The notes under the pieces: model-generated
Told to the model about the DNA's origin: nothing
The model's input: the letters and a program-made list of their open reading frames with translations, nothing else
Database searches by the model: none
Translations under genes and position numbers: made by a program
Shown here: positions 22,508-28,958 of the stretch, one piece after another
Numbering within the stretch: position 1 is the first letter of the stretch
How the letters are laid out: each line of letters begins with the position of its first letter
Origin: Sandaracinus amylolyticus
Lineage (GTDB): Bacteria > Myxococcota_A > Polyangia > Polyangiales > Sandaracinaceae
Length of the DNA: 64,000 nt
NCBI RefSeq assembly: GCF_000737325.1
Contig: NZ_CP011125.1
Span: forward strand, 8,122,001-8,186,000
Reading direction: 5' to 3'

Positions 22508-23473
22508 TCATTCGTGTCCCCAAAAGTGCCGGCGCAAACGTTCGACTACCGTGTGCTCGGCTCGTCGCGCCTCATCCAGCGTCACCAGATACCGTAAGTG
22601 TGAGATCCCCACGTCGACCGCTCTCACCCGGGGTACGTCCGCAGCAGCGTACCACTCGGGCTCGTCAAGCAGCGTGTACCCGGTGCAGTACGCCGCGCGG
22701 TCTGCATGCGAATAGCCCGCGCGCCGTAGGCACCCGAGCAGCTCACGCGGCTCGTCGCATCGCTCGAGCAGTCGTTCGACAAGGCTCGCGACAGTCTCGT
22801 GAGAGTCTGGATCCGGCTTGAGCCACAAGGACAACAGCCACGCGTCGTGTCGTCCTGAAGGCGCATCGACTTGGGAAAGCGAGACAAAATGCTGACGACG
22901 GTTCCGGGACGCCTTTACCTCGACGCTCACGCCGTCAGCGAAGAAGTCGGCTGCATCTTTCTCGGGACCACGCCATGACGCGATGGCGCGATTCACGTCA
23001 TTGCTGTGCTCCAAGAACCAGAGCTCGCCCCAGAGCCCAATCTCCGCCTCCGAACTCGGCCGCCCGCGGCGCGCAAGCAGTGTTTGCCATTCCTCCACGA
23101 GCAAGAGGACACGCGCCCAGTCGGTTCCATGCGACGCCGCGCGCCGCAGAACGTCGCCCGCAAGGATGGAGAACGCATCGAGCAACTCCAGGTCGGTGCA
23201 GACAAGCACAGCCGCAGGGCTGGTCCACGCTCGCCGCTCGTGCTCGAAGCACAGGTTGGGATGAGCGAGTAGCTCGCAGCCGGAGGCGCGCCGGCCAACC
23301 ACGCCAGCGCCGAGAGATGGAAGCGGCAGGACGAGGGCCGGGAGGCCTTTCCTCGTCACCGCTGCGTACGCGAAGGATATCGGTTCGAGAAGCATGTAGT
23401 CTCCCCGGGCATCTGCGCCGGCGTGTCCCGCCGAGTGCCAGGCCGCGCGTAGCTGCGTCGCTTCACGCGTCAT
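22508..23473 (-). CDS. PD-(D/E)XK motif protein (DUF4420), putative restriction nuclease
   Basis: The protein has 321 residues. The centre (about residues 140-200) carries the DUF4420 signature: EIGLWGELWFLE, W-x-GPEKDAADFF and VSVEVKAS, the last giving the E-x-K of a PD-(D/E)XK nuclease core with an upstream Asp. The C-terminal part contains LDEPEWYAAADVPRVRAVDVGISHLRYLV, typical of this family. Members are found with Z1 ATPases and C5-methyltransferases in predicted restriction systems. Its start overlaps the Z1 gene stop by 11 bp, so translation is coupled. The predicted role is DNA cleavage directed by the Z1 motor. Confidence 0.88.
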   Translation of the reverse strand: MTREATQLRAAWHSAGHAGADARGDYMLLEPISFAYAAVTRKGLPALVLPLPSLGAGVVGRRASGCELLAHPNLCFEHERRAWTSPAAVLVCTDLELLDAFSILAGDVLRRAASHGTDWARVLLLVEEWQTLLARRGRPSSEAEIGLWGELWFLEHSNDVNRAIASWRGPEKDAADFFADGVSVEVKASRNRRQHFVSLSQVDAPSGRHDAWLLSLWLKPDPDSHETVASLVERLLERCDEPRELLGCLRRAGYSHADRAAYCTGYTLLDEPEWYAAADVPRVRAVDVGISHLRYLVTLDEARRAEHTVVERLRRHFWGHE

Positions 23474-25610
23474 CGGAAGTCACGTTGACGATCACGCTGG
23501 GCATCTGGCGGTCGAAGACGACCGTGGGATACCAGAACTCGTTCGCGGGCCTGTCAGCGATCTGCTTTCCATCATCGCGAAATGCAGCGAAGACCGGCCC
23601 ATCCTGATTTCGCAGCCTTTCCAGTTCTTTGCCGGAGACAGCGCCCGTCGTGAGCATGCTCCGCCTCCGGTTCATCCTGCGCGTGTACAGATACGCTCTG
23701 CCTTTGCATCGATCGCGTTGTCGCTCGAGTACTCGCCCGATCGCCGCCGGAACCCAACTACTCGACAGCTCCTTCCGGTTGTAGGGGAAGGTCTCGACGA
23801 GCTCGAGCATGACATCGAACTCGATCGGTACGAGTTGGGGCTCTGTGCTCAGGCTGTCCCCGATGAGCGCCTCGATGCGACCGGCGATCGCCTCGTACTC
23901 GGATCGCTTGAGCGTGAGATCCGGATGGATCGGATAGACCTGGTCCTCGGCGTCGAAGGCATCGATGTAGGTCGGATCCAGGACCGCATTGCGTGTTGGT
24001 CGAAGGGATCCCGTTCTCTCGATTACGATCGGCTTGCCGAGGTCAGCCGCGGCCAGCTGTCGACGCAAACGCTGTTCGATGCGATGAATCTCGTGGAACC
24101 GGACGGCGAGCTGTGGCGGAAGAAACACTCGTGTGAGATGCATGAGCGGGGAGCGATAACCGTACATTCTCGCGTGCTGCAGCATCGTATCCATCTGGCC
24201 GACCTTCGGTTGACGCAGATAGTAGGTGACAATGAGGTTATCGATCGTCACACCGCGGCCGAGGATGTTCCCCCCGATAATCAGATTCAGACCCCGGCCG
24301 GGTTCTGCGTCGGCTTCGGAGTTTACGACGATCACTTTGCGGGTGACGAGCCGACGTCGAATTTCGGTGATGACGCTGTCAACAGAAGGGACGCTGGGGA
24401 AGGTGCGCTTCAGCTCGTCGAATGCGGTGTGCAGCTTGTTCAGCCCATCGCCCGAGCCTGCATCGATGTCATCACTGACTCTGTCCACATACGTACGAAT
24501 CAGCTCTTCGAGGTTCCGATGCTGTTGTCTGAGCTGGCTCGTGTGACAGAGGAAATTCTGCCCGGAGCGCGCGGTCGCCGGATCCGTGAGAGCTTGGGCG
24601 CCAGCCGCGACGAGGAAGTAGGCGATCGCGCGCCGAAGTCCGTCGGGAGCATCTGAACTGCCTTGCGCGAGTTCCACGGACTCGTTCGGATCGACGAACA
24701 CGAGCGGTGGCTCGGGGCCGTCTACGTGATGTGACTCGAAGAAGTACTCGCCGCCTGTGTACCCGTCGCCAGGTTCGAGCAGCCGTGTGAAGCTCGGCCT
24801 CAACTCGGTCCCCACGCTCTGCAGCAGCAGCGCGTACGGCGTTGCGGTGACCTGAAGGAAGACGTGGTGACGAAGTGTCTTACGGAGTCCGTCGACGACG
24901 GCGGTATAGATCGCCGTCGGGTCTCCGGGCACCTCTCCCTTGGTTTGCTTCCGGACGTTCCTTGCAAGGTTCGCGTCCAGAGTCGCCTGGTCGGCCTCGT
25001 CGTCGAGGATCAGCGCAGGGAACTCCGGTGCACCGATTTTCTCGAGGAAGGTGATCAGTGCATCCAGTCGCGTCTTGTTCTTAGAGCAAACGAACACCAC
25101 GCCTGCCTGCGCAAGGTGCTTCCCGATGTGCTTGTGGTCGCTCGACCACGCGCTCGGATTGAGCGCATCCAGCGGGATCGGCCCTTCGAGCGCGGCAAAC
25201 CGCTTCGTCGTTTGGTCGACGAGCGTGACGTTGTCGGAGGTAAGCACGACGACAACACGGAAGCCGTTGTCGATCGCAGCCGCGACCAGCGCGATCATCG
25301 CGACGGTCTTGCCGCTCTGGATGCGACCGTAGAGCAGGCCGGTGCACGGTTTCGTCGGCGGCTGCGGGCTCGCGCAGACCGAGCCGTCAGCACCGACCTC
25401 ACCCGGCGCGACCTCGGCCTCGTACGTCTGCACGACACGGCCGAGTAGCGCGAGCGCGTCTTGACGGATCTTGTCCAGCGCGGCGCCCGACATCGGCTTC
25501 GGCCCGGCGCCGAGCGCTTGCAACGTCCCGTTCAGACATGCGCCGTCGCCGCGTAGGACTGGGGCAGGAGCGGTGGCGAGCTTCGCAATGCCAACAGGCC
25601 CGGTAGACAT
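23463..25610 (-). CDS. Z1-domain superfamily 2 ATPase/helicase
   Basis: The product has 715 residues from ATG 25610. Upstream frame sequence (to 25826) is Arg/Pro-rich and rejected. Walker A is GRIQSGKTVAMIAL near residue 100, the DEAD-like Walker B is LILDDEADQA near residue 200, and motif III is TATPYALL. The Z1 block in the middle of the C-terminal half contains GGNILGRGVTIDNLIVTYYLRQPKV in part, followed by MLQHARMYGYR, which correspond to helicase motifs V and VI. Z1 proteins are known from restriction-like neighbourhoods with GHKL/MORC ATPases, DUF4420, Vsr and Dcm methylases. It heads the - strand operon Z1-DUF4420-SAP protein. No GHKL ATPase gene is present here. Confidence 0.9.
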   Translation of the reverse strand: MSTGPVGIAKLATAPAPVLRGDGACLNGTLQALGAGPKPMSGAALDKIRQDALALLGRVVQTYEAEVAPGEVGADGSVCASPQPPTKPCTGLLYGRIQSGKTVAMIALVAAAIDNGFRVVVVLTSDNVTLVDQTTKRFAALEGPIPLDALNPSAWSSDHKHIGKHLAQAGVVFVCSKNKTRLDALITFLEKIGAPEFPALILDDEADQATLDANLARNVRKQTKGEVPGDPTAIYTAVVDGLRKTLRHHVFLQVTATPYALLLQSVGTELRPSFTRLLEPGDGYTGGEYFFESHHVDGPEPPLVFVDPNESVELAQGSSDAPDGLRRAIAYFLVAAGAQALTDPATARSGQNFLCHTSQLRQQHRNLEELIRTYVDRVSDDIDAGSGDGLNKLHTAFDELKRTFPSVPSVDSVITEIRRRLVTRKVIVVNSEADAEPGRGLNLIIGGNILGRGVTIDNLIVTYYLRQPKVGQMDTMLQHARMYGYRSPLMHLTRVFLPPQLAVRFHEIHRIEQRLRRQLAAADLGKPIVIERTGSLRPTRNAVLDPTYIDAFDAEDQVYPIHPDLTLKRSEYEAIAGRIEALIGDSLSTEPQLVPIEFDVMLELVETFPYNRKELSSSWVPAAIGRVLERQRDRCKGRAYLYTRRMNRRRSMLTTGAVSGKELERLRNQDGPVFAAFRDDGKQIADRPANEFWYPTVVFDRQMPSVIVNVTSDDA

Positions 25611-25944: not shown

Positions 25945-26380
25945 GATGGGTCCGACCCATCCCCACCGACTCCAATCTCGATCTCGATGGGTCCGACCCA
26001 TCACGACCGACTCCAATCTCGATCCCGATGGGTCCGACCCATCCCAACCGGCTCCAAGCTCGATCTCGATGGGTCCGACCCATCACGACCGACTCCAATC
26101 TCGATCTCGATGGGTCCGACCCATCACTCATCGAGAAAATTCTCGACCACCGATGGGTACGACCCATCCCTCATCGAGAAAAATCTCGGCAACCGATGGG
26201 TCCGACCCATCCCTTTCGCCCCAAAACTCGACGACCGATGGGTCCGACCCATCCCCCATCGAGAAAATTCTCGGCAACCGATGGGTCCGACCCATCCCCC
26301 ATCGAGAAAATTCTCGACCACCGATGGGTCCGACCCATCCCGATCGACTCCAAACTCGATCCCGATGGGTCCGACCCATC
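25945..26380. repeat. array of eleven 17-bp palindromes, helically phased
   Basis: The sequence GATGGGTCCGACCCATC (8-bp arms, one central base) occurs at 25945, 25986, 26027, 26068, 26109, 26152, 26195, 26237, 26280, 26323 and 26364. Only the copy at 26152 differs (A for C at position 8). Spacing is 41, 41, 41, 41, 43, 43, 42, 43, 43, 41 bp, close to four helical turns, so all copies face the same side of the duplex. Linkers fall into two families: 24-bp linkers ending in CTCGAT(C/T)C after ACTCCAA, and 25-26-bp linkers, most with a second dyad CGAGAAAATTCTCG. The linkers are therefore related to each other, unlike CRISPR spacers. All reading frames stay open through the array, which produces spurious repeat proteins. 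The likely role is a multi-site protein-binding array. Confidence 0.92.
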
Positions 26381-26499: not shown

Positions 26500-27366
26500 A
26501 TGCCCGAGATCATCCACGAGCCGCCCGTCATGCCCGACGGTCCCACGCTGATCGCCGCGCTCGCGGCCAAGCGCGAGATCCTCACGAACATGCCGGCGAC
26601 CGAGGTGCTCCACGCGATGCGCCTCGATGCGCGCTCGGCGGCCGGCATCGCCGGCGGCAGCCTGCCGCGGATCGCCCGGCACCGCGCCGCGCTCATCGCG
26701 GAGTTCGGCGAGCGCGCCCGCGCGCTGCTCGACGACCTGCCGACCGTCGTCTACGCGACGTACCAGGCGGCGTACGACGTCGACGCGGCCGAGGACGACA
26801 GCGACATGCGCGAGCTGCACCGCCAGGTGCTCGAGGAGCACCAGCTCATCGCCGGCGACCTCGACGCCCTCGCCAACCGCAAGATCATCGACCGCTCGCG
26901 CATCGACGCCGGGCGCTCGATCCTGGGCTACCGGACGACCGTCGACAGCACGTTCGTGCTCCTCAGCCTCACCCGCTCGCTCTGGATGACCATCCAGGGC
27001 CGGACGCTGCTCACCGAGGCCGACCTCGAGCGCATCGAGGCGAAGGCGCAGGCGATGCTCGACCGCCTGAACCAGCGCGAGCAGCGCGCGACCCGCATGC
27101 CCACGCGCGAGCTGCGCGACCGCGCGCTCACGCTGCTCGTCCGCACCTACGACGAGATCCGCCGGATGCTCACGTTCGTGCGCTGGGCGCAGGGCGACGC
27201 CGACGAGATCGCGCCGTCGCTCTACGCGCGTCGCGGCCGCAAGCACGGCGGCACCGACACCGACCCGCCCGACGAGGACGTCGAGCCGACGCCGGAGCCG
27301 GAGCCCACGCCGGCGCCGATCGTCATCGAGGGCCCGAACAACGGCGGCGGACCCTTCGCCCCGTGA
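26500..27366 (+). CDS. hypothetical helical protein with acidic proline-rich tail
   Basis: The product has 288 residues from ATG 26500, with GGAAGGAG upstream; the frame upstream of this is only the palindrome array. The first 235 residues look all-helical with heptad-like spacing (GPTLIAALAAKREIL, MRELHRQVLEEHQLIAGDLDALANRK, LTEADLERIEAKAQAMLDRL, RELRDRALTLLVRTYDEIRRML). The tail is Asp/Pro/Glu-rich (DEDVEPTPEPEPTPAP). There is no signal peptide or membrane span. I do not recognise a family. It is the first gene after the palindrome array, 119 bp from its last copy, so it could be controlled by the array or encode a protein that binds it; both are inference. Confidence 0.75.
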   Translation: MPEIIHEPPVMPDGPTLIAALAAKREILTNMPATEVLHAMRLDARSAAGIAGGSLPRIARHRAALIAEFGERARALLDDLPTVVYATYQAAYDVDAAEDDSDMRELHRQVLEEHQLIAGDLDALANRKIIDRSRIDAGRSILGYRTTVDSTFVLLSLTRSLWMTIQGRTLLTEADLERIEAKAQAMLDRLNQREQRATRMPTRELRDRALTLLVRTYDEIRRMLTFVRWAQGDADEIAPSLYARRGRKHGGTDTDPPDEDVEPTPEPEPTPAPIVIEGPNNGGGPFAP

Positions 27367-27554: not shown

Positions 27555-28958
27555 GTGGCTCCTCGACTGCACCTCGGTCAGCGCCGGTCCATCGACGGAC
27601 GCAACGACCTCGGACCGTTCCACCTGCCCACCCATCACCTGCTGACGCACGCGGTCGTCGTCGGGATGACCGGCAGCGGCAAGACCGGCCTCGTCACCGT
27701 GATGGTCGAGGAGGCGCTGCGCGCCGGCGTGCCGGTGCTGGTGATCGGCGTCAAAGGCGACCTGCCGAACCTGAAGCTCGCGTTCCCGTCGCTCGACGCG
27801 GCGCGGATGGGGCCGTGGGTGGAGCCCGAGCCCGACGACGACGACGGCGTCGCCGATGCGCACGTGGTCGAGGCGGCGCTGGCGAAGCACGCCGAGGGCC
27901 TCCGCGAGTGGTCGATCGGGGAGGCCGAGCTCGCAGCGCACGCGGCGAGCACGATGGTGCGCGTCGTGACGCCCGGCTCCGACGCCGGCGAGCCGCTGCA
28001 TCTCCTGTCGGCGCTCGAGCGCAGCTCGGACGCCTGGGCGCACGACGCCGCCGCGAAACGCGCGCGCCTGAGCGCCGCGATCTCGCTGGTGCTGCGCCTC
28101 ACCGGGCGCGACGGCGACCCCGGCAAGAGCCGCGAGCACGCGTTCCTCGCGGTGCTCGCCGAGCAGCGGGTGCGGCGCGGCGAGACCGCGGCGCTCGAGC
28201 AGCTGGTGCCCGAGATCCTCGAGCCGCCGCTCGCCGTGGTGGGCGCGCTGCCGGTCGAGCAGTTCCTCTCGGCGCGCCTCCGGGCCGAGCTCGCGGCCGA
28301 CCTCAACACGCTGATCGCGTCACCGTCGTTCGCGTCGTGGCGGACGGGCCAGGATCTCGACGTCGCTCGGTGGATGGAGAAGGCCGACGGCAAGACACCG
28401 GCGACGGTGGTGAGCGTCGCGCACCTCGACGACGACGAGCGCGCGCTGGTGCTCGGCGTGCTGCTCGAGGAGGTGCTGACGTGGACGCGCAGCCTGCCCG
28501 GGAGCAGCCGGCTCAAGGCGCTCGTCGTGTTCGACGAGGTCTACGGCTTCATCCCGCCTCATCCGGCGAGCCCCCCGACCAAGCGTCCGCTCGTCGCGCT
28601 GATGAAGCAGGCGCGCGCGTATGGCGTCGGCGTCGTGCTCGCGACGCAGAACCCGATGGACCTCGACTACCGCGCGCTGTCCAACGCCGGCACGTGGATG
28701 CTCGGGCGCCTGCAGACCGACGCCGATCGCGCGCGCGTGATGGAAGGCCTCGGCGAGGACAAGAAGAAGAGCGAGCTCGGCGCGCTCGTGAAGATGCTCG
28801 CGCCGCGCTGGTTCGTGGTGCGCGACGCGAAGACGTCGCAGGCCACGCTCCTCAACCCGCGCTGGGCGATGTCGTACCTGCGCGGCCCGATGACGCAGAG
28901 CGAGATCCGGCGCGCGACGCGGAGCGAGCAGGAGGGCGAACGCGAGCTCGCCGGATGA
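27555..28958 (+). CDS. HerA/FtsK-like ATPase
   Basis: The 467-residue protein starts at GTG 27555, with GGAGG six bases upstream. Walker A GMTGSGKTGLVTVM lies near residue 37 and Walker B LKALVVFDEVYGF near residue 335. A sensor-like stretch KQARAYGVGVVLATQNPMDLDYRALSN follows near residue 360, as in HerA/DUF853-type hexameric DNA-pumping ATPases. The N-terminal barrel is short. It has no NurA or nuclease partner beside it. Known relatives translocate DNA in recombination, conjugation or defence (for example with SIR2 or DUF4297 effectors), but here the neighbour is an unknown helical protein. Codon use matches the chromosome, so it is not clearly part of the island. Confidence 0.88.
   Translation: MAPRLHLGQRRSIDGRNDLGPFHLPTHHLLTHAVVVGMTGSGKTGLVTVMVEEALRAGVPVLVIGVKGDLPNLKLAFPSLDAARMGPWVEPEPDDDDGVADAHVVEAALAKHAEGLREWSIGEAELAAHAASTMVRVVTPGSDAGEPLHLLSALERSSDAWAHDAAAKRARLSAAISLVLRLTGRDGDPGKSREHAFLAVLAEQRVRRGETAALEQLVPEILEPPLAVVGALPVEQFLSARLRAELAADLNTLIASPSFASWRTGQDLDVARWMEKADGKTPATVVSVAHLDDDERALVLGVLLEEVLTWTRSLPGSSRLKALVVFDEVYGFIPPHPASPPTKRPLVALMKQARAYGVGVVLATQNPMDLDYRALSNAGTWMLGRLQTDADRARVMEGLGEDKKKSELGALVKMLAPRWFVVRDAKTSQATLLNPRWAMSYLRGPMTQSEIRRATRSEQEGERELAG

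Follow-up and report, generated by a model that had tools for sequence, protein, structure and literature searches.

Within a 64,000-nucleotide stretch of the Sandaracinus amylolyticus chromosome (positions 8,122,001-8,186,000 of a single 10,327,335-bp contig; hereafter the window), an array of eleven phased palindromes at 25945..26380 lies beside the gene of an all-helical protein of 288 residues (26500..27366, + strand). The protein belongs to an undescribed family, and family searches and array linkage lead us to propose it as the array-binding protein. Taken as a whole, the data are best explained by the array being the binding platform of the adjoining gene's protein, a reading to which we assign a probability of about one half. 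The helical protein family and its paired phased arrays look like an undescribed system: searches of open-licence papers turned up neither arrays of this type nor the protein family, and the passages searched in the Sandaracinus amylolyticus genome paper and in a myxobacterial CRISPR survey make no mention of them. The published genome of strain DSM 53668 comprises 10.33 Mb (PMC5010890).

The window array consists of eleven copies of GATGGGTCCGACCCATC starting at 25945, 25986, 26027, 26068, 26109, 26152, 26195, 26237, 26280, 26323 and 26364, with successive spacings of 41, 41, 41, 41, 43, 43, 42, 43, 43 and 41 bp. Ten of the eleven copies are perfect, the copy at 26152 (GATGGGTACGACCCATC) being changed at its centre alone. 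The linkers form two families, one of which has its own dyad, CGAGAAAATTCTCG, centred ~21 bp from the centres of the adjoining palindromes; it is found at 26132..26145 and again in the linkers after 26237 and 26280. These data confirm the first-pass annotation, which had described eleven palindromes, ten of them perfect, at 41-43-bp spacing, and had recognized the two linker families and the additional dyad. No Rfam family was detected in the window. The same annotation had set CRISPR aside, and we concur: the repeat is a complete dyad, the presumptive spacers are related linker families with a dyad of their own and not unrelated unique sequences, and linked cas genes are absent, the examined neighbours encoding a Z1-domain protein, the 288-aa family and a HerA-like ATPase; the paired gene family is a non-Cas one. 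The system described here accounts for a class of tandem repeats which CRISPR-detection programs, when run on these genomes, may list as questionable.

The sister species, a third Sandaracinus-like genome and genomes from another family also have homologs of the 288-aa gene, and there the homologs adjoin arrays of related but different palindromes (AAGGGTCCGACCCTT, AACGGTCNGACCGTT and GGCGGTCCGACCGCC). For family genes and control tiles, we determined which period from 15 to 80 bp gave the highest self-match in the surrounding 900 bp, requiring a match of at least 50%. By this measure, 38 of 50 family genes carried a 41-43-bp array within 900 bp, compared to 30 of 865 control tiles (10/425 and 20/440, some of them themselves real arrays). 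Fisher tests returned 5e-38 for the full set and 7e-30 for the 30 of 42 genes obtained after removing the eight that had been found through arrays, values that overstate the association because the family genes share ancestry; their palindromes nonetheless vary between genes. The array pattern was also seen for ~10 of 14 distant members in other classes, and a regular-grid 1.6-Mb survey of the S. amylolyticus genome revealed three family genes by profile search, all three with a directly adjoining array. For 18 of 64 family genes, no clear array was present within 1.3 kb. The geometry of the gene-linked arrays proved highly uniform, with 226 spacings averaging 42.1 bp and 221 of them falling at 41-43 bp (the stacking step allowed 39-45 bp, the preceding 15-80 bp scan being unrestricted). 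A distance of 42 bp corresponds to four turns of B-DNA. Moreover, 13 of 46 arrays, as compared to ~4 expected (p 2e-4), had their second-best dyad at a centre-to-centre distance of 20-22 bp from the best one, and many arrays thus alternate two dyads that are two turns apart.

We then followed the window palindrome across genomes. Among the places listed by a genome-wide search, GATGGGTCCGACCCATC formed four arrays in the 10.33-Mb genome, and none of these places was an isolated copy at 0-2 mismatches, a distribution well outside what chance would give. Besides the window array, the window protein has three orphan arrays, at 2.05 Mb (18 units, 2.0526-2.0533 Mb), 3.33 Mb (9-10 units, 3.3301-3.3305 Mb) and 5.81 Mb (13-14 units, 5.8059-5.8064 Mb). 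The exact 17-mer recurred in one further genome among 183 of the order, from the same genus, and 84,980 other species genomes yielded single copies only, ~50 in number, with ~60 expected by chance as estimated from the size of the collection. Across these four arrays and two from the sister species, palindrome identity between arrays was 91-99%, almost always falling at 94-99%, and linker identity between different arrays was 53-73%. Perfect palindromes made up 59 of 70 units, many of the defective ones lying at array ends. The window palindrome is under strong selection, as this computation shows, while the linkers drift. Two of the orphan arrays have counterparts at orthologous positions of the sister-species genome, where the flanking sequence is 91-95% identical; their unit numbers differ (18 vs 8 and 13-14 vs 8) and the palindrome is kept. 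In the sister species, the array beside the ortholog of the window protein has degenerate palindromes (L138:6700-6950; GATAGGTCCGACCCTTC and similar), as opposed to its two orphan arrays, in which 14 of 16 units have the perfect palindrome.

The 1.6-Mb survey detected 21 places with a period of 41-43 bp or its double, 13 of them clearly intergenic, which extrapolates to ~85-135 arrays per genome; the three family genes found in the same survey suggest, again by extrapolation, ~20 genes per genome. The resulting figure of ~5 arrays per gene agrees with the palindromes that we traced, and many of the estimated 85-135 arrays probably belong to other paralogs. The first-pass annotation had named hundreds of similar arrays without protein binding as the sign of a neutral repeat family. 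For the window palindrome itself this does not apply, as it occupies four arrays and not hundreds, but the estimated ~85-135 arrays of the same architecture with other palindromes go some way in that direction. A neutral class of tandem repeats, generated by intergenic slippage and close to these genes by coincidence, would be in line with many arrays of different sequence genome-wide and with a copy number that varies between species, but it leaves unexplained why the palindrome is kept while linkers diverge, why the period is fixed at 41-43 bp and why linkage to one gene family is so strong. We regard this explanation as highly implausible. The proposal of a protein-coated array, made in the same annotation, gains strong indirect support from the helical phasing, from selection on the palindrome and not the linkers, and from phylum-wide linkage of such arrays to one gene family, binding being what we infer from these three observations.

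The protein that would coat the array resembles no family covered by our searches. The 288-aa protein had no match in Pfam, NCBIfam, PADLOC, PHROG or PDB: its only hit to KfrA_N was at E 0.8, Pfam returned neither MatP nor ParB, and no toxin family was found in Pfam, NCBIfam or PADLOC. Together with 43 family members, it likewise lacked any match in Pfam and NCBIfam to Y1/HUH transposases or to any nuclease family. The single-sequence fold prediction was of low confidence (pLDDT 54) and had no recognisable DNA-binding domain; the PDB gave neither a sequence nor a fold match, the model being too weak for fold comparison. Arg, Leu, Ala and Pro predominate among the nearly invariant residues of the family, which do not include the acidic or His residues expected of a nuclease. 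Profile searches, in which at most 13 candidates per genome were scored, identified the family in 68 of the order's 183 genomes; copies were frequently numerous, with seven or more paralogs per genome. Extending the searches from the order to other classes within the phylum revealed the family there as well; relatives on plasmids, phages or viral contigs were not found.

Each paralog appears to have its own palindrome. In S. amylolyticus, the paralog at 8.906 Mb (gene 8.905 Mb) has the dyad AATCTCCGAGATT, that at 1.047 Mb CGATTTTGAAATCG with GGGTGTCagcGACCCC, and that at 1.306 Mb CAACTCGAGTTG with TGGATTTCAAATCCA; paralog-specific palindromes of other genomes include ACCGGATCCGGT, GCTCCCGGGAGC, GCAGCCGAGCTGC and AGCCAGCTGCCT. 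Sister-species orthologs of three paralogs keep the same motif. Computation therefore shows that palindromes differ between paralogs and are mostly kept between orthologs. The second dyad, for its part, resembles CGATTTCAAAATCG or TGGATTTCAAATCCA in several Sandaracinus paralogs, and dyads of this type are common to the arrays of different paralogs (L230, L231, L169, L170, L171, L100), as if they were read by a common factor or by a conserved part of the protein.

Orphan arrays are not restricted to the window palindrome. Arrays with AATCTCCGAGATT are located at 2.514, 3.262, 3.609 and 4.172 Mb and arrays with the motif CGATTyyGrnATCG at 2.308 and 5.301 Mb; for the 8.058-Mb paralog, no orphan array with its core was found in the genome. 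Orphan arrays were also seen in other genera, and one genome in which only one family gene was detected has ~8 arrays with the palindrome core of that gene. The genes flanking the orphan arrays of S. amylolyticus encode UvrA, a cytochrome peroxidase, a PLP enzyme, an ABC permease, kinases and disulphide oxidoreductases. We saw no shared function among these neighbours and hence no evident regulon. According to a simple third-position-GC gene caller, which is not an annotation, the orphan arrays lie mostly at gene 3' ends or in convergent gaps, five of nine between convergent genes and none of nine between divergent ones; divergent positions occur in other genera. On each side of the 5.81-Mb orphan array lies a copy of ~200 bp from the 3'-terminal part of a gene for a pyridine nucleotide-disulphide oxidoreductase, a duplication present in both species (L033:6850-7620, L099:6420-7300). 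With dnaA (9.82 Mb) as origin proxy, GC skew being too weak, the nine orphan arrays of three palindromes are ~2.6-4.7 Mb away from it, out of a maximum of 5.2 Mb. We place little weight on this distance, an after-the-fact observation that Sorangium-like genomes (genus inferred) do not bear out, the bias being absent there.

These positions bear on how the arrays may act. Of 46 gene-linked arrays, 34 lie on the 5' side of their gene, for the most part at a distance of 75-390 bp, and 12 on the 3' side. Because of this 5' preference, the gene-linked array probably controls its own gene, and an array located 75-390 bp upstream, as for most genes, would be an autoregulatory operator. The protein might be nothing but a repressor of this kind, with the adjoining array as its operator and the orphan arrays as operators of a small regulon. 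The 5' arrays would suit such a plain autoregulator well, but the 12 arrays 3' of the gene would not, nor would orphan arrays that sit mostly at gene 3' ends and in convergent gaps beside unrelated functions, and we therefore rate this possibility as unlikely. Under the binding-platform reading, orphan arrays beside unrelated genes suggest that the function is structural or one of addressing, and not the control of a regulon: mostly intergenic, they would be bridged or marked by the same protein that occupies the gene-linked array. A dimer of the protein may bind each dyad. All protomers would then come to lie on one face of the helix, owing to the four-turn spacing and, in many arrays, to an additional dyad at two turns. 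Such an arrangement should favour the formation of cooperative filaments or clusters. Several observations stand against the binding-platform reading: the family genes with no clear array, the fold model devoid of a recognisable DNA-binding domain, the 8.058-Mb paralog for which no orphan array was found, the degenerate gene-linked palindromes of the sister species and the unrelated functions beside the orphan arrays.

In its layout, the system is closest to RAYT-REP pairs and to centromere-binding systems, but for each of these a tested defining feature was not found here. Like RAYT (TnpA-REP)/REPIN systems, it combines a chromosomal, vertically inherited gene with cognate palindromes, each paralog having its own repeat, and the cognate repeats lie beside the gene and dispersed in extragenic DNA. 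Membership in this class is rejected since the Y1/HUH tyrosine transposase that should stand beside the repeats is missing from the 288-aa protein and 43 family members. Further differences are the phased arrays of ~4-18 dyads at four turns, few per palindrome, and the HerA-like ATPase of one branch in place of a Y1 transposase. It could still be that the protein maintains or mobilises a domesticated selfish repeat, with orphan arrays seeded from the gene-linked array and devoid of any structural role for the host. The paralog-specific repeats beside the gene and at dispersed extragenic sites, the mostly intergenic location of the arrays, the partial gene-end duplication that flanks one orphan array and the estimated 85-135 arrays of this architecture in the genome would all fit such a scenario. 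However, the absence of transposase or nuclease matches and of nuclease-type acidic or His residues among the invariant positions argues against it, as do the small number of exactly phased arrays per palindrome, the persistence of two of them at the same loci in two species, and the lack of flanks shared between the arrays of one genome beyond orthology, the gene module and one local duplication. Overall, we consider repeat mobilisation a rather improbable origin of the arrays.

The centromere-binding comparison yields a similar picture. As in ParB-parS, palindromic sites occur at several chromosomal places together with a presumed oligomerising binder and a possible NTPase partner; unlike ParB-parS, there are many orthogonal paralogs per genome and no ParB or ParA homology in the system of the window. 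ParABS was rejected because neither a ParB-family protein nor a ParA-type ATPase was found, the ATPase being of the HerA/DUF87 type, and because the nine orphan arrays lie ~2.6-4.7 Mb from dnaA as origin proxy instead of near the origin. One could nevertheless picture partition sites of the ParB-parS kind, belonging to the chromosome or to integrated elements, given palindromic sites, a candidate site-binding protein, an ATPase gene adjoining in one branch and, in one related genome only, a ParA-like ATPase (AAA_31, 1.5e-27) near a gene-linked array (L133:7783-8802, + strand). Without a ParB domain, with a HerA-like and not ParA-like ATPase, with at least seven paralogs of different sites per genome, with arrays spread over the chromosome, orphan ones far from dnaA, and with no plasmid relative, such a partition function is quite improbable.

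Two further site-marking systems were compared. MatP-matS similarly marks chromosomal palindromes with one protein, and the known orphan arrays of S. amylolyticus lie away from dnaA; unlike MatP-matS, no sequence relation was found and there are several paralogs. It was rejected on the grounds that Pfam gave no MatP match, that the sites are arrays and not single, and that Sorangium-like genomes have no positional bias. Iteron arrays and KfrA-type systems carry helically phased repeats beside the gene of their binding protein. They differ from the arrays described here by a two-turn instead of four-turn spacing and by the chromosomal location of our arrays with dispersed orphan copies, and were rejected because neither an initiator nor a KfrA domain (KfrA_N E 0.8) nor a plasmid match was found.

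In an entirely different mode of action, the transcribed array would form repeated hairpins that bind and neutralise the adjoining protein; each palindrome could fold in RNA as a 7-bp hairpin. Type III toxin-antitoxin systems (ToxIN-like) likewise have ~35-45-bp tandem repeats of locus-specific sequence beside one gene, and ~42-nt repeats directly upstream of one gene would match this arrangement. Here, however, the repeats are dyads and the protein family is unrelated and, at ~290 aa, longer, with no match to a toxin family; a transcribed array upstream of a toxin RNase gene was not found, 12 of 46 arrays being 3' and orphan arrays common. Arrays on either side of the gene or without any gene, freely drifting linkers and a constant four-turn period across the phylum, for which RNA would offer no reason, make the antitoxin scenario very unlikely.

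One branch of the family is coupled to an ATPase. The next gene in the putative operon of the window (27555..28958, + strand) encodes a HerA-like P-loop ATPase of 467 aa, which matched PF05872 (3.4e-9, 36.3 bits, cut-off 22) and PF01935 (2.3e-6, 28.3 bits, cut-off 23.2) in Pfam and HerA (5.9e-14) and mad8 (7.1e-15) in PADLOC. With its P-loop core and HerA_C similarity above the Pfam cut-off, the protein has the features by which we define the HerA/DUF87 type. The order of family gene followed by HerA-like ATPase gene recurs in 15 tabulated loci, and in the loci compared, array and ATPase are the only conserved neighbours of family genes. The window protein ends in the tail GPNNGGGPFAP (codons 27331..27363, + strand), whose Pro-Phe tip is common to ATPase-linked members: Pro-Phe, in one case Ala-Phe, is present near the C-terminus of 15/15 ATPase-linked members vs 6/35 others, and for two of these six the contig ends too soon for an ATPase gene to be visible. 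The pairing of tip and ATPase occurs in two separate clades of the tree, and we take the correlation as suggestive and not as independent evidence, because both traits cluster on the tree and independent events are few. The tip is reminiscent of the SSB C-terminal tip: in both, a tail that is rich in proline and probably flexible carries a conserved Pro-Phe close to its end, the proposed docking site of a partner enzyme. The family is not SSB, however, and the putative partner would be a HerA-like ATPase. In this branch, the tip might dock the ATPase and thereby load a DNA-translocating motor at the arrays. A family member at L169:5137-5982 (- strand) has the tip with no ATPase gene adjoining, and may use the ATPase of a sister locus in trans.

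Extending the binding-platform reading, protein-array pairs would represent a set of orthogonal systems that address or organise the chromosome. We tentatively envisage, at somewhat less than even odds, a widespread chromosome-addressing system with ~10-20 orthogonal protein-array pairs per large genome, in which each protein coats its own dispersed, four-turn-phased arrays to bridge or mark sites, and one branch loads a HerA-type motor via a C-terminal docking tip. An unannotated family paired phylum-wide with arrays that are alike in geometry and not in sequence is a rare and directly testable protein-DNA code, in which numerous naturally occurring proteins can be matched to their cognate dyads and compared between orthologs and between paralogs. 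If the binding is true, some of the largest bacterial genomes would prove to have a further, new level at which the chromosome is organised or addressed, and the pairs would provide a large supply of orthogonal DNA-binding modules, and a HerA-type motor tied to defined chromosomal sites.

Several additional loci merit mention. On the upstream side of the window array, 23463-25610 (- strand) encodes a protein with a Z1 domain that is somewhat similar to MzaC, a component of the anti-phage system MZA; given its low third-position GC, and given that it is not beside the array in the sister species, this stretch is likely acquired DNA that abuts the array. Genome G068, which has the protein family, additionally contains tandem arrays of a 22-bp unit (L102, L114), and the ones inspected had no family gene in the surrounding 1.5 kb; their GGTCCGACC dyads are spaced by two helical turns. 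Finally, a predicted protein of 1299 aa (L131:7306-11205, + strand), encoded beside an array, clustered with the family in an all-against-all comparison.
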